Position numbers and translations under genes: made by a program. A stretch of 64,000 nt of DNA, taken from positions 1 through 64,000 of the forward strand of contig JAKJBW010000005.1 of the NCBI GenBank assembly GCA_022706785.1, given 5' to 3'. The notes beneath the pieces are model-generated. The model was not told the origin of the DNA. It ran no database searches and was given only the letters and a program-made list of their open reading frames with translations. Each line of letters starts with the position of its first letter. The stretch's first letter is position 1. This document shows, piece by piece, positions 18,889-26,959 of the stretch. Source of the stretch: Bacillota bacterium. GTDB taxonomy: Bacteria > Bacillota > Clostridia > UBA1381 > UMGS1253.

Positions 18889-19193
18889 CCAAAATCATCC
18901 CAATCGTTTCCCGCTCAGCAGTCACCCAATCCTTTCACAATCATAGTCTCATAGAGACTTCCATTTCGTAAGGATATTATACAACATATATCTGATTTTC
19001 AACATCTTGTATGTTAAATTTTGGTTACAATAATATATTGCAGTAAAAAATATGTCTGTTCGCAGTTTGAGATACTTACTTTGCTATTTGTCGAGGGCTT
19101 GACAATCAAAGGCAGGATTATCTTATAGAAATAAAAAGGCACTTGCATTATACGGTAAACCATAATATAATTATCAAGAGAGGTGCAGTAAAA
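18889..19193. other. Intergenic part of the tRNA-Pro element
   Basis: No gene is seen. A possible promoter for the DMT transporter, TTGACA (19099-19104) with TATAGA (19124-19129), has a long 19-base spacer. The part next to the integrase remnant shows no further recognisable integrase sequence. Confidence 0.5.
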
Positions 19194-20243
19194 ATGAAAT
19201 CCAATAAAATACCAGTATTCTATGCAATGCTTGCTGCGTTATGTTATGGTGTGTCTGCGCCGATTGCAAAGATAATTCAAACGGAACTTTCACCTGTATT
19301 TCTTGCGGCATTTCTGTATCTCGGTGCGGGAGTTGGAATGAGTGCGGTGCAAGTGTTCCAAAATGATAACAACAATGAGGCACAGCTATCAAAAGCGGAT
19401 TTGCCGTACACTATCGCAATGATTATCCTTGATATAGCCGCACCGCTTTTATTGATGTTTGGGCTGTCGCTCACCACCGCCGCCACCGTTTCTTTGCTTG
19501 GCAATTTTGAGATTGTTACAACAAGTATAATCGCACTTGTAATATTTAAGGAAACAATCGGGCGGCGAATGTGGCTTGCAATCACATTGATTACTGTTTC
19601 AAGTGTGTTGCTATCGGTTAACAACTTTGGTGAAATCGTACCGTCATCAGGGGCGTTGCTCGTTCTTGGGGCTTGCGTATGTTGGGGGATTGAGAACAAC
19701 TGCACAAGCAAACTATCACTTCGTAACCCTTTGCAAATCGTGATTGTCAAGGGCTTCGGCTCTGGCTTGGGTGTACTGATTATCGCACTTATTGGCGGCA
19801 ATTTTGCAATGAACTTGCCGTATATATTCGCAGCACTTGTACTTGGATTCATTGCTTACGGGTTAAGTATTTACTTTTACATTTTGGCTCAACGTCATAT
19901 CGGTGCGGCGCGGACAAGTGCGTATTACGCTTTCGCACCGTTCATCGGTGTTGTACTATCGTTAATTTTCTTTCGAGAGGTTCCGACAGTATCTTTTGTA
20001 ATTGCGCTTGCCGTGATGATAGCGGGTGCATACCTCGCCGCAAGTGAGAAACATACGCACGAGCATACCCATATAAAATTTGAACATGAACACCGTCACC
20101 GTCACGGCGACAATCACCATATGCACGAGCATAATCTACCTTTCAACGGTGAACACAGCCACGCTCATATTCATATTGCGCTATCGCACATTCACGCGCA
20201 TACACCGGATTTTCATCATTCACATACGCATCGAAAAACGTAG
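19194..20243 (+). CDS. EamA/DMT family transporter with histidine-rich C-terminal tail
   Basis: A 349-residue protein with ten predicted membrane helices in two EamA halves (residues about 1-140 and 150-290) and a C-terminal tail of about 60 residues extremely rich in His (HTHEHTHIKFEHEHRHRHG, and later HSHAHIHIALSHIHAH). DMT carriers export or import small metabolites; the His tail suggests metal binding or metal control. AGAGGTG precedes ATG 19194; the frame to 19143 lacks a site. It is the only intact gene between the two 47-bp att-like repeats, hence the apparent cargo. Confidence 0.88.
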   Translation: MKSNKIPVFYAMLAALCYGVSAPIAKIIQTELSPVFLAAFLYLGAGVGMSAVQVFQNDNNNEAQLSKADLPYTIAMIILDIAAPLLLMFGLSLTTAATVSLLGNFEIVTTSIIALVIFKETIGRRMWLAITLITVSSVLLSVNNFGEIVPSSGALLVLGACVCWGIENNCTSKLSLRNPLQIVIVKGFGSGLGVLIIALIGGNFAMNLPYIFAALVLGFIAYGLSIYFYILAQRHIGAARTSAYYAFAPFIGVVLSLIFFREVPTVSFVIALAVMIAGAYLAASEKHTHEHTHIKFEHEHRHRHGDNHHMHEHNLPFNGEHSHAHIHIALSHIHAHTPDFHHSHTHRKT

Positions 20244-22096: not shown

Positions 22097-24253
22097 TCAA
22101 TCAGCATAGGCGTATTCGCCCATAAACAAAATCTCTCCGTTTGCATCGTCACGGATAAAATAAGTAAAGGGCTTATCGGCGGCAAATTCAACAGGAGGTT
22201 CTTCGGGTAAAACGCTTGTGGCACGGATGGCAATTGCTGTTGCAGCGGCGGCTTCCGTTCCGTTTTCGTCCACATCAATAAATGTTTTATGGGACACCTC
22301 TGTAATGCACACATTATTCGGTGTGTCGGTAAACATAGCTGTAAAATCAGCTTTATTGTCATCAAACGCCGCGCGTATACCCATATTTGACAATATGCTG
22401 TTCAACGTAATACCAAATTCCGTTTTAAATTTTGGCAAGCTCAGTTTTACGCGTTTGGCCTCCATCTTTTCAATACTTGCGTCTAGCGCCATTGCCCGTC
22501 CTGCCGTAAGCGCCACGTACATGCTTGTCTTTCCGTCCTTGTAGGGGAGCTTTATCATCTGAACGGAGTCATCCGCGTAATAGCCAAAATAGTCCGTCAT
22601 GTTCATAAAATCAATTTCTGATTTTTTGCCGTCTCTGTCAGTGAATTCTGCTTTTTGGGTCGCGCCTTTGCTAAATTGCTTCGCCCATTCTCCTTTAAAA
22701 TAAACGGCGTTTACAATGCAAGCCAAGAAATCACTGCTTGAGATGATCTGTGATATTTTGCCGTTGGTTTTATTTTTTACCCAATCGTTTACCATTCTAA
22801 CGGCATTTGTGTTGTTTACCTTTTCGCTGTCAGCATGATAATACTTTTGGATGGTATCCGCAAATGCGCTTTTAAAGTCAACATCCTTATAGTAATCGGT
22901 GTTCAGCCAAAGGGAATTTGCGATATTCAGTTTCACCTTTTCATTCCCGCTATATTCCTCAATCAGTTGTGCGCAAGCCTGATTAAAGCTGTCTAAATCA
23001 TCAATTTGCAATGTATTTAATATTTCATCTTTTGTTTCGCCGTTTGCGCCCACAGAAGCTATCGCAAGCGCCATTTTGATGCTGAGCGGTGAGAACATAT
23101 AGTTTTTGCTCACAGGCATCAGCCTGTTCAAACCCCATGCAAAGCCTTCGCCGGTATCTGAGCACTCCGCTAAAATAAGGCTGTTTAGCCGCTGCTCGTC
23201 AACCACGCCTTTTTCAATCAATTTATCTTTTAAGCTCCTTCCGTCAGGCGTTCTGGCCAATAGAGCGCAATAGCATAAGTTTACCACATCATTGCGAAGC
23301 AGAGGGTAGTCCTCGGCTGATACGGCCAGCTTGGTATAGTTGTTTACCAGTAAGGCATATTTGATCCCCGCATCATAAGCATCTTCTATGGTGATACCCT
23401 GATACCCAAAGGCCGAAAGCAGCATCTTTACAAATTCCCGCCCGGTTACGGTACGTTCCGGATCAAAGGTTGTTTCGCTTGTGCCGTTGATGTAGCCTTT
23501 GCCTGCGGCATAACCGATATTGGCATATGCCCAATGGGAGGAAGCAACATCCGAAAAATCCCGCCCGCTGTTTGAGCCGGCAGCATCCTTTTCTTCACCG
23601 ATCATACGCAGGACCATGGTGATAGCTTCGGCTCTCGTCACGGGCTTTTCAAGCTCATATCCGTTGTCGGTGCCTTGGAATAAGCCTAATTTGTTTAAAA
23701 CATCAGCATTTTCTTCAGCCATAGGAATGGGAATATCAGAATTACCGATTGTATATGCGGAATCCTTGGTATCCTCTGTCCGGATCGCTTTTCCCTGGTC
23801 GTAATACGCATCAAGCAGCTTGGTCACGCTTTCGCTGTCCGCATTGATCTTGTATTTAAAATTCGGCAGGCTGCTGAAATAGGAGCCGTATCTGGCAATC
23901 AATCCGTTTTGGATATACACCGAACCTAAAATGCCTTTGCCCAAAAAGTTGATTTCATAAGTATCCGCACGGCTGAATCCATCAAAAATCAAAACGTTGT
24001 CCCCGGTCTCGGTAATGGAGAACTGCTGATCAAACTGTGTTAAAAACTCATCCATTTTATTTTTATCCAATGTGCGTATGCCGTTGTCGGAGCCCAGCTT
24101 CCACAGCGTCATTTCCGTGGCATCCGCAAGGGATAAGGCATCGGAGATGGCGATGTCGGCAAGGGATAGCTGCTTTGCGTGGTCCTCCGCAACAGAAGAG
24201 CCTGTAAAGAGCAATATTGTAAGAGCCAAGATAGCGCAAAGTATTCTTCTCAT
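22097..24253 (-). CDS. Secreted SLH-domain/serpin fusion protein
   Basis: A 718-residue exported protein. Residues 1-22 are a signal peptide. Residues 25-180 are unassigned. Residues about 185-355 hold S-layer homology repeats (KPVTRAEAITMVLRMIGEE; FSDVASSHWAYANIGYAAGKG; TFDPERTVTGREFVKML), of which the third is weak. Residues about 365-718 are a complete serpin: NYMFSPLSIKMALAIASVGA, NAVYFKGEWAKQF, and an inhibitory hinge GTEAAAATA from residue 665, with Thr679-Ser680 as predicted P1-P1'. The alanine-rich hinge indicates a true protease inhibitor. SLH domains bind pyruvylated wall polymer, made by CsaB encoded at 3.5 kb. AAAAGGAGG precedes ATG. Confidence 0.92.
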   Translation of the reverse strand: MRRILCAILALTILLFTGSSVAEDHAKQLSLADIAISDALSLADATEMTLWKLGSDNGIRTLDKNKMDEFLTQFDQQFSITETGDNVLIFDGFSRADTYEINFLGKGILGSVYIQNGLIARYGSYFSSLPNFKYKINADSESVTKLLDAYYDQGKAIRTEDTKDSAYTIGNSDIPIPMAEENADVLNKLGLFQGTDNGYELEKPVTRAEAITMVLRMIGEEKDAAGSNSGRDFSDVASSHWAYANIGYAAGKGYINGTSETTFDPERTVTGREFVKMLLSAFGYQGITIEDAYDAGIKYALLVNNYTKLAVSAEDYPLLRNDVVNLCYCALLARTPDGRSLKDKLIEKGVVDEQRLNSLILAECSDTGEGFAWGLNRLMPVSKNYMFSPLSIKMALAIASVGANGETKDEILNTLQIDDLDSFNQACAQLIEEYSGNEKVKLNIANSLWLNTDYYKDVDFKSAFADTIQKYYHADSEKVNNTNAVRMVNDWVKNKTNGKISQIISSSDFLACIVNAVYFKGEWAKQFSKGATQKAEFTDRDGKKSEIDFMNMTDYFGYYADDSVQMIKLPYKDGKTSMYVALTAGRAMALDASIEKMEAKRVKLSLPKFKTEFGITLNSILSNMGIRAAFDDNKADFTAMFTDTPNNVCITEVSHKTFIDVDENGTEAAAATAIAIRATSVLPEEPPVEFAADKPFTYFIRDDANGEILFMGEYAYAD

Positions 24254-24531
24254 GTCCGCCTCCTTTTTAACTATGTTTTTTGAATTTAAAACGTGCCTTC
24301 ATATGTATATAATAATTTTAGACGCAACGATCAAAGATTTTGTTCCAGTTTTTTTCAATGTAACAAGTAATTAAAGGGTATGCCTGACTGCAGTCAGACA
24401 TACTCCTTGCAATATTACTGTTTTGCTGTCGTCAAGGTCGGGCAGTATTTTTTTTAAAAAAAAACCATGTATCTAACATCTCCACACCTACCCTTGACAA
24501 GGTGGCTACAGCGATTACATATCGTAATATT
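24254..24531. other. Intergenic region with palindrome
   Basis: Contains the inverted repeat GTATGCCTGACTG/CAGTCAGACATAC (24378-24403, one mismatch) and a weaker TACTG/CAGTA hairpin ahead of T8 (24415-24459). They separate the small HTH gene from the serpin gene; a terminator role is plausible. No promoter for the serpin was recognised with confidence. Confidence 0.5.
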
Positions 24532-24750
24532 TTATATGATTTTTCCTGTATCGTTTAATATAAAATTTGTTTCAAAGGTTGCATCACAAGCTGTTGCGAT
24601 TGCTTGTAAGTCCTTTTCTGAAAAATTATCCCTTTTAATTTTTTGACTTAGATTTTGTACTGTTGTTTTCGGTATAATTTTATCTGCTAAATTCTGTAAT
24701 GTCATTTCTCGTGCCGCAAGTAACATTTTTATTTTTATAGATGAACCCAT
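24532..24750 (-). CDS. Small helix-turn-helix protein
   Basis: A 72-residue protein resembling a single-domain XRE-type regulator: MLLAAREMTLQNLADKI, then TVQNLSQKIKRDNFSEKDLQ and a last helix. AAAGGAGTGATTTT precedes the ATG, and a good promoter (24770-24798) lies upstream. It may be a phage or mobile-element repressor; its target is unknown. Confidence 0.75.
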   Translation of the reverse strand: MGSSIKIKMLLAAREMTLQNLADKIIPKTTVQNLSQKIKRDNFSEKDLQAIATACDATFETNFILNDTGKII

Positions 24751-24769
24751 AAAATCACTCCTTTTTGAT

Positions 24770-24798
24770 AGTATACATCATGAAATTTAAAGATTCAA
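24770..24798 (-). promoter_or_regulatory. Promoter of the small HTH gene
   Basis: Minus-strand TTGAAT (24793-24798), 17-base spacer, TATACT (24770-24775). Confidence 0.75.
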
Positions 24799-24839
24799 CT
24801 CGAAAATTTAACGCCTTAATAAATAGATTCAATTATATG

Positions 24840-24868
24840 TTGACAAATTAAGATATGTGATTTATTAT
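24840..24868 (+). promoter_or_regulatory. Promoter of the two-gene unknown operon
   Basis: TTGACA (24840-24845), 17-base spacer, TATTAT (24863-24868), divergent from the HTH gene's promoter. Confidence 0.65.
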
Positions 24869-24926
24869 ATTAACTGTATAATTTATATTTTAAATTATAA
24901 TAAATTAAGGCGGGTGAAAAAATTTT

Positions 24927-25283
24927 ATGAACGACAAAAAAAGTAGGGTGGCGGGGAGTGGGAACAAGAAAGGTCTGACCAAAAGGGATAAACACACTAT
25001 CCGTTTTCTAAAATGGATCAGGCGTTATTCCGGTTGGTGGTATCTCATTTGTACGCCTGGTGACGAACACATGAATATGGGCATGATGAAAATGCTGACC
25101 CAACGCCTTGCAAAAGAACAATTTTATGAAATCATCTTTGTTTTGCTCATGGTGCATAGGGATACTGATTTTATGGACAGCGTTTTCAAATATTCATTGC
25201 TTGAAATGATAATTGCAGGGTGGCAGGGCGAAGTCAAAGGTAAAGACCAGTTTATACAGGACATAACAGATTTATTAACCTAA
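24927..25283 (+). CDS. Hypothetical protein
   Basis: A 118-residue protein with a basic N-terminus (KKSRVAGSGNKKGLTKRDKH) and a helical rest (TIRFLKWIRRYSGWWYLICT; LAKEQFYEIIFVLLMVHRD). It has no signal peptide or clear transmembrane helix. GGCGGGTG lies about ten bases before ATG. It overlaps or abuts the next gene, suggesting a two-gene operon. No family was recognised. Confidence 0.6.
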   Translation: MNDKKSRVAGSGNKKGLTKRDKHTIRFLKWIRRYSGWWYLICTPGDEHMNMGMMKMLTQRLAKEQFYEIIFVLLMVHRDTDFMDSVFKYSLLEMIIAGWQGEVKGKDQFIQDITDLLT

Positions 25284-25300
25284 TGAAAGGGGCAAATAGT

Positions 25301-25600
25301 ATGATAATTCGGCAAATAAAAGAGAACCATTGGGAGCACGTTTTCAGCCATGTCACTAAATATGGCAGGGCAACGCCCATGTCCTTGCAGTATGACATTG
25401 ACATTAACTGCAATGGCGTGGATTATATTCTGACAATACAGCCGGACAGAAACCGAAAACTGGTAGCCTTGCAAGCAATGGGCGTTTATCCCGACGGTGG
25501 GGAAATAGGCGGCAAAAGGTATCGTTTGGTAGATAATAATGTGATGCTTTCCGCACTTCTTGAAATTATTATTTATCAGGGCGCTAATAAAAGAAAGTAA
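25301..25600 (+). CDS. Hypothetical protein
   Basis: A 99-residue protein (MIIRQIKENHWEHVFSHVTK, YDIDINCNGVDYILTIQ) with a mixed alpha/beta pattern; not recognised. ATG 25301 has AAAGGGG eight bases upstream; an alternative ATG at 25283 overlaps the stop of the preceding gene. It is followed by a terminator, so it closes the small operon. Confidence 0.6.
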   Translation: MIIRQIKENHWEHVFSHVTKYGRATPMSLQYDIDINCNGVDYILTIQPDRNRKLVALQAMGVYPDGGEIGGKRYRLVDNNVMLSALLEIIIYQGANKRK

Positions 25601-25622
25601 AATAAAAACCGTAGGATCAGCA

Positions 25623-25655
25623 AAAGAAGGTTGAGTGTATTCTCAACCTTCTTTT
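25623..25655 (+). terminator. Terminator of the unknown two-gene operon
   Basis: The stem AAGAAGGTTGAG/CTCAACCTTCTT is followed by TT. Confidence 0.85.
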
Positions 25656-25909
25656 CATAATATTTGGTCTTAAATTTGACTTTGTATATTGAATCATAAA
25701 TAAGGTTTTAAAGTTATGTATCTTATCATTCTACAACGGACTCTAAAATAATTTTTGCACCAAGTTTAAACCCATAAGCAAAGTTTTCATAACAAAAATA
25801 TTGATGTCAATGTTTTTCTGAATAAAAAGTTTGATAAAGCAAATAAATGTTGTATTTTATCAAATGTTATGGTAAAATAATTCTTAAATAATTAGAGGAG
25901 TTGACTAAT
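25656..25909. other. A/T-rich intergenic region
   Basis: No gene is seen. It holds a likely promoter for the next regulator at 25850-25878 (TTGTAT, 17 bases, TAAAAT). Confidence 0.5.
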
Positions 25910-26119
25910 TTGTCGTTTAGTTATAATAAACTTTGGAAGTTATTAATTGATAAGAATATGACGAAAAGTGATTTGAGAAAAGCAATAGGGATATCCTCCA
26001 GCACAATGGCGAAAATGGGCAAAGGCGAAAATGTTTCACTCGACGTTATTGATAAAATATGTAAACTGCTTGATTGTAAGGTTGAAGATATTTTGGAACA
26101 TATAGACGGGAATGAATAA
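25910..26119 (+). CDS. Small XRE family regulator
   Basis: A 69-residue single-domain regulator: SYNKLWKLLIDKNMTKSDLR, GISSSTMAKMGKGENVS, VIDKICKLLDCKVEDILEHI. This type often controls restriction-modification or mobile genes. TTG 25910 is chosen because TTAGAGGAG lies nine bases upstream; TTG 25901 abuts that site. The small ORF at 26164 follows. Confidence 0.82.
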   Translation: MSFSYNKLWKLLIDKNMTKSDLRKAIGISSSTMAKMGKGENVSLDVIDKICKLLDCKVEDILEHIDGNE

Positions 26120-26163
26120 TTAATATTTATATAAAGCTATATTTGGAGGAGAATGAAATATTT

Positions 26164-26289
26164 ATGCATACTGGCGTTTTGACGCAAGTTGAAATAGAAA
26201 AAATTGATAGTATATTAGAGATTTGTTTCGGCAAATTGGTCGATAAAATTTCTTGTGTCCAAAAGGATTTTTTATACAAACAGAATTAA
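26164..26289 (+). CDS. Small ORF, possibly a truncated gene
   Basis: A 41-residue frame (MHTGVLTQVEIEKIDSILEI, then CFGKLVDKISCVQKDF) behind GGAGGAG at a long distance of about 13 bases. The helical, charged composition looks coding, and it follows the XRE regulator at 44 bases. It ends abruptly, so it may be the N-terminus of a gene lost by deletion. Not recognised. Confidence 0.4.
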   Translation: MHTGVLTQVEIEKIDSILEICFGKLVDKISCVQKDFLYKQN

Positions 26290-26511
26290 GAAAACTGGAG
26301 AACACAGATAAAAACACTTTGTATTGTAAATTTTATTCATCTGTAATTAAGCAATTTACTTATCGTCAATACTTGCTTATTGACTATCCATAAACCTTTG
26401 ATTTTACTACGTTTTCAAAAAAGATCCTGTAAAAACACTCCGACCAAAATAAAACCGCTCGTATCAACAGATACAGCGGTTCTCATTTTTCTTATACTTT
26501 GATTTTGTGTG
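26290..26511. other. Intergenic region with minus-strand terminator
   Basis: No gene is seen. A hairpin AACCGCnnGTATC/GATACnGCGGTT at 26453-26481 is followed on the minus strand by TTTTATTTT and ends the SCIFF transcript. Confidence 0.7.
26453..26481 (-). terminator. Terminator of the SCIFF gene
   Basis: Stem-loop with GTATC/GATAC inner and AACCGC/GCGGTT outer pairs, then a T-rich tract on the minus strand. Confidence 0.75.
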
Positions 26512-26673
26512 TTACTCGTTAAGAATTGATTTAGCGGGCTTTTCGCATTTTTGATTGGCAACCGTGCAGGAAGTCTTGCATGCCGACTGGCATGATGTCT
26601 GGCATTCGCCGCAGCCGCCGTTTGCTGCGGAAGCTTTAAGCGTAGCGCCGTTTAACGTCTTTATATGTTTCAT
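26512..26673 (-). CDS. scfA: SCIFF (six cysteines in forty-five) ranthipeptide precursor
   Basis: A 53-residue peptide matching the SCIFF family almost word for word: MKHIKTLNGATLK as leader, then the core CGECQTSCQSACKTSCTVAN and QKCE. Cysteines are at residues 21, 24, 28, 32, 36 and 43. In Clostridia a radical SAM maturase installs thioether (ranthionine-type) crosslinks on this peptide, and products have been tied to quorum-sensing-like control. The start has AAGGGGAG eight bases upstream and a consensus promoter at 26709-26737. The maturase that usually lies beside it is absent: the gene is monocistronic, ended by its own terminator, and convergent with unrelated genes. Confidence 0.95.
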   Translation of the reverse strand: MKHIKTLNGATLKASAANGGCGECQTSCQSACKTSCTVANQKCEKPAKSILNE

Positions 26674-26708
26674 GGTAAAATCTCCCCTTATACGTTTATT
26701 TCTAAAAT

Positions 26709-26737
26709 ATTATACACTTGAGGGCCGCTGTTGTCAA
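26709..26737 (-). promoter_or_regulatory. Promoter of the SCIFF gene
   Basis: Minus-strand TTGACA (26732-26737), 17-base spacer, TATAAT (26709-26714): full consensus. Confidence 0.92.
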
Positions 26738-26872: not shown

Positions 26873-26959
26873 GCCCAAGTGGCGGAATAGGCAGACGCAA
26901 GGGACTTAAAATCCCTCGGCAGAAATGCCGTGCCGGTTCGAGTCCGGCCTTGGGCACCA
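26873..26959 (+). tRNA. tRNA-Leu(UAA)
   Basis: An 87-nt class II tRNA: acceptor GCCCAAG/CTTGGGC, anticodon stem AGGGA/TCCCT with loop CTTAAAA (anticodon UAA), long variable arm CGGCAGAAATGCCG, T arm GCCGG-TTCGAGT-CCGGC, and encoded CCA. Confidence 0.96.

Follow-up and report, generated by a model that had tools for sequence, protein, structure and literature searches.

A SCIFF ranthipeptide precursor gene and its maturase gene at separate loci in a genome of the Clostridia

Introduction

The maturase of SCIFF systems installs a non-alpha-carbon thioether in the precursor peptide (PMC8326336), and such maturases have been collected on the basis of the usual distance of no more than about 500 bp between the two genes (PMC5300114). 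In the window, i.e., the whole 64-kb stretch of DNA analyzed here, a sequence-only reading had described a SCIFF gene with no radical SAM maturase on either side, and had proposed either that the maturase is encoded elsewhere and acts in trans or that the peptide has been retained alone for another role. To decide between these possibilities, the window, the remainder of the genome (assembled in 52 contigs, with 90.7% completeness and 1.7% contamination), and related genomes were analyzed. The peptide family is known and the gene arrangement is uncommon, while the biological role of the SCIFF peptide system is still debated.

Identity and surroundings of the precursor gene

The features of the precursor locus are as follows.

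26512..26673, minus strand: SCIFF ranthipeptide precursor gene scfA (TIGR03973, PF13165, alignment with the CteA leader)
26682..26689, minus strand: ribosome-binding site AAGGGGAG upstream of the scfA ATG, read from the sequence
26709..26737, minus strand: sigma-70/A-type promoter TTGACA-N17-TATAAT, 12/12 by consensus scan, 35 nt upstream of the scfA ATG
26440..26483, minus strand: intrinsic terminator of scfA, a singly bulged 14-pair hairpin followed by a T-rich tail, found by folding
26873..26959, plus strand: tRNA-Leu(taa), the divergent upstream neighbor of scfA (context only)
24500..26500, no strand: AT-rich stretch directly downstream of scfA, with 28 to 42% G+C against 48% for the window

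The 53-amino-acid product (MKHIKTLNGATLKASAANGGCGECQTSCQSACKTSCTVANQKCEKPAKSILNE) scored 82.7 bits against TIGR03973 (cutoff, 50) and 84.6 bits against PF13165 (cutoff, 27), with its six cysteines at residues 21, 24, 28, 32, 36, and 43, i.e., within about 45 residues, in full agreement with the near-perfect family match claimed earlier. Residues 1 to 21 align, by sequence comparison, with the CteA peptide cocrystallized with CteB (5wgg chain B), and Cys32, Thr34, and Thr37 occupy positions identical to those of the crosslink residues of CteA and Tte1186a, in whose reported crosslinks Cys32 is named as the donor and Thr34/Thr37 as the acceptors (PMC8326336). The leader and all six cysteines are conserved, and scfA is a genuine, ordinary, and well-conserved SCIFF precursor. 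A search of the genome's contigs revealed a single SCIFF copy: a weak match on C30 was rejected as a frame unrelated to SCIFF, and a still weaker SCIFF-like match on C44 (E = 0.195) contained a stop. Since there is no second copy, the refuting case of a maturase next to another SCIFF gene does not apply. Elsewhere, in genus g19 (G064 to G067, G068, G069, G071, and G072), the SCIFF gene is doubled, with two leader-plus-core units head to tail in one frame, giving two TIGR03973 matches 6 to 9 nt apart that are followed by the maturase; in the doubled gene of G068 (C18:315514-315762; L025 7515-7763), Gly replaces Thr37 in both units.

The consensus promoter and the separate terminator that had been read from the sequence are both borne out. 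The terminator hairpin has a folding energy of −18.6 kcal/mol (z = −5.7; none of 200 shuffles folded as well), although a scan limited to loops of 3 to 9 nt overlooked it owing to its bulge. Immediately downstream of scfA, G+C falls from ∼45% to 28 to 30%, and the resulting 2-kb AT-rich stretch, which encodes a small HTH_26 regulator and open reading frames without a Pfam match, occupies the place where relatives carry the maturase. This stretch may mark a rearrangement and is possibly acquired DNA. Neither a maturase homologue in the 64-kb window (tblastn), nor a maturase on C22, the contig carrying scfA (profile search), nor a maturase remnant downstream of scfA was detected, confirming the absence of a neighboring maturase; as the locus lies well inside a 106-kb contig, loss of a local maturase through the assembly alone does not come into question. 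Two other genes in the window are of separate interest: one at 22097-24253 (minus strand), for a 718-amino-acid protein in which an S-layer homology domain is joined to a serpin, probably a surface-anchored protease inhibitor, and one at 19143-20243 (plus strand), for a putative EamA-like transporter whose long His-rich C-terminal tail is suggestive of metal binding.

The maturase ScfB elsewhere in the genome

The whole-genome search that had been recommended as a check located the SCIFF-type maturase on other contigs, as two complementary partial TIGR03974 matches that each reach a contig end.

C11:3-776, minus strand: N-terminal half of ScfB, TIGR03974 positions 1-259
C10:11006-11581, minus strand: C-terminal half of ScfB, TIGR03974 positions 259-450 of 451

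TIGR03974 was the best family for both halves (362.9 and 321.9 bits, respectively, where the cutoff is 425 bits and full-length matches of relatives reach 671 to 785 bits), and the halves align with CteB (5wgg/5why) at 7-259 and 259-450. The ends of C10 and C11 overlap by TTCAC (5 nt), and joining them in frame yields an uninterrupted, CteB-like protein of 455 amino acids. Such a split at contig ends would also be expected if the gene were truly interrupted, for instance by an insertion element for which the shared TTCAC could be the target-site duplication, and the SCIFF peptide would then be made and left uncrosslinked in a decaying system. We consider this unlikely: a break caused by a repeat normally leaves repeat bases, but maturase sequence runs to the last base of both contigs with no element sequence there; moreover, the reading frame runs unbroken through the junction and there matches the relative G001 exactly (YYVRGTFTAYNLDFAKDVLHLADLGF), and both halves are well conserved and without stops. 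With foreign bases absent from both contig ends, the split most probably reflects a simple break in the assembly.

A promoter (GTGACA-18-TATAAT, 11/12, with an extended −10) lies 105 nt before the ScfB ATG; like that of scfA, it was identified by consensus scan only. Also upstream of ScfB is a divergent gene whose sequence reads by eye as that of a KDPG aldolase, and the intergenic stretch, which contains the promoter, carries no SCIFF gene. No SCIFF gene lies beside ScfB, though ∼10 kb of upstream sequence is present; scfA and ScfB are on different contigs rather than within ∼500 bp of each other. As for other radical SAM genes, the one at C8:2617-3726 was rejected as a distant match (71.9 bits) of the sulfatase-maturase type beside a sulfatase, and the one on C3 was likewise distant (23.8 bits). 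The former gene and the apparent sulfatase that follows it, both assigned by eye (L026, G000 C8, 2617-5228, plus strand), overlap by ∼30 nt.

The assignment of C10 and C11 to this genome rests on G+C content (0.475 for C10 and 0.497 for C11, compared with 0.477 for the window) and on a shared closest relative, in that G001 is closest for both scfA and ScfB among the compared genomes of the order. The figures for G001 are 90% for the SCIFF peptide, which is so conserved that this affinity says little for the peptide alone, and 71/78% for the maturase. Contig numbering was rejected as evidence of order, as the contigs are apparently not numbered by position. The separation could be an assembly artifact if C22 were chimeric just downstream of scfA, where the drop in G+C occurs, or if C10/C11 came from another organism in the bin, and the genus is represented here by a single genome. 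This is very unlikely, however, considering that errors would be needed at two independent loci (scfA without a maturase downstream and ScfB without a SCIFF gene upstream, despite the sequence recovered there) and that C10 and C11 match in G+C and closest relative.

In G001, the pair adjoins transketolase genes, which in the present genome are on C8 without SCIFF or maturase. No conserved flanks around the pair were found in other relatives, and an attempt to place the ancestral position by synteny was abandoned, gene order being too little conserved to tell which gene moved.

Frequency of separation and co-occurrence of the two genes

Among 95 genomes of the order, 83 encoded SCIFF, all 83 of which also encoded the maturase. 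The gap was 64 to 345 nt in 80 of the 83 pairs, and the remaining three pairs were on different contigs. Two of these were rejected as cases of separation: in G044, the start of the maturase lies directly downstream of SCIFF and is cut by the contig end, and in G047, both genes are at contig ends. Adjacency therefore holds for 81 of 82 resolvable pairs, so that the earlier statement about the maturase following directly in most cases is right for this order, and the genome studied here is its sole demonstrated separation (1/82). Of the 80 named loci taken from genomes in public databases, 76 were adjacent, one was at a contig end, and three were apart; in two of these three, including Peptostreptococcus faecalis, the maturase was 57 to 63 kb away on the same contig. 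In the Peptostreptococcaceae, 18 of 40 pairs were separated, either by more than 1 kb or by their location on different contigs (the latter being four pairs counted without a contig-end check), and in some the distance along a single contig was 60 to 96 kb or more. Adjacency is consequently a usual but not a required feature of SCIFF systems. Separation is rare in this order, common in the Peptostreptococcaceae, and not unique within the Clostridia; because it is common there and single here, the present case is probably an event independent of the Peptostreptococcaceae. Our search found no paper describing the separation of scfA from its maturase, but most subscription journals were outside that search, and novelty is not claimed.

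Across both clades (136 genomes), 123 genomes had both genes, none had SCIFF only, two had the maturase only (with the match beginning at contig base 1 in one genome and at 320 nt into the contig in the other), and 11 lacked both (Fisher P = 1.6 × 10^−14, phylogeny ignored). Retention and loss thus go hand in hand for the two genes, irrespective of adjacency, and this pattern speaks for maturation in trans. Retention of SCIFF without a maturase for another role, e.g., as an unmodified Cys-rich metal-binding peptide, would suit the lack of a maturase beside scfA; yet the genome does encode one, all 123 SCIFF-bearing genomes do so as well, and the leader and cysteines are preserved, making this explanation extremely unlikely. 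Of the two proposals in the sequence-only reading, a maturase elsewhere that acts in trans is thus supported by ScfB on other contigs without a SCIFF neighbor, and retention of the peptide alone is not.

Transcription signals at adjacent and separated loci

Terminator-like hairpins were found in the gap of 55 of 82 adjacent pairs, against 2.8 expected from dinucleotide shuffles, and in 18 of 20 adjacent Peptostreptococcaceae pairs (0.0 expected). Promoters matching at least 10/12 positions were present upstream of SCIFF at 41 of 86 loci (3.3 expected) and in none of 81 SCIFF-maturase gaps (1.1 expected). With promoterless gaps, expression of the maturase presumably depends on transcription reading through the hairpin, so that the precursor would stay in excess over the enzyme. 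Separated SCIFF genes retain both the promoter (14/18 versus 1.3 expected) and the terminator (12/18 versus 0.1), and separated maturases often have a promoter of their own (13/19 versus 2.65). The notion that separation itself brings the maturase promoter was rejected: adjacent Peptostreptococcaceae maturases also have one (10/20 versus 2.45 expected; Fisher P = 0.33 for separated versus adjacent), and the promoter is therefore not a mark of separation itself. Rather, it goes with the lineage and may precede separation, making uncoupling first and separation later a plausible order of events. The present genome matches this pattern, with a strong promoter and a terminator on scfA and a promoter on ScfB.

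Proposed maturation in trans

We conclude, with a probability of roughly 0.86, that scfA is an ordinary precursor gene in a strong single-gene transcript whose product is modified in trans by the distant ScfB, expressed from its own promoter. On this model, scfA would be transcribed strongly as a single-gene unit; the N-terminal leader-binding domain of ScfB, supplied from the other locus, would recognize the MKHIKTLNGATLK-type leader, and its radical SAM/SPASM domains would install a thioether on Cys32. By analogy with known SCIFF systems, the same kind of product is expected. A signaling role like that of SCIFF ranthipeptides in solventogenic clostridia may be envisaged; in C. beijerinckii, sporulation genes decreased and agr increased when precursor and maturase were disrupted (Chen et al. 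2020, reviewed in PMC8102284). The pair would be separable at little cost once the maturase has a promoter, because the terminator already uncouples precursor and enzyme.

That a terminator is conserved between the two genes suggests control of dosage. As a tentative and rather doubtful generalization, SCIFF and its maturase may be independently regulated throughout the Clostridia, the terminator setting a large precursor excess and the maturase promoter freeing the genes to part and to respond to different signals, with an independent case here; if so, separated precursors and maturases could answer to different signals. In practical terms, searching the neighborhood of SCIFF for a maturase, or that of a maturase for SCIFF, would overlook this organism along with almost half of the sampled Peptostreptococcaceae, while lineages with separated genes allow either gene to be deleted or regulated singly without polar effects.

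Comparison with known systems

The system resembles CteA/CteB of Clostridium thermocellum (5wgg, 5why) in its leader (MKHIK-LNG-TLK), in Cys32 with Thr34 and Thr37, and in a full-length maturase with the radical SAM motif CNLRCEYC and the SPASM cysteines, but differs in that precursor and maturase occupy different loci and each have a promoter. Its precursor and maturase families are those of the SCIFF ranthipeptides known from C. beijerinckii and C. ljungdahlii, where knockout affected sporulation and agr genes (Chen et al. 2020, cited in PMC8102284 and PMC8326336). The closest parallel in arrangement is with the Peptostreptococcaceae, e.g., Peptostreptococcus faecalis Marseille-P4308 (L080), where a single SCIFF gene and a single maturase gene are often far apart, with a terminator after SCIFF and a promoter before the maturase; unlike in that family, where separation is common, it is a single occurrence in the order to which the window belongs.
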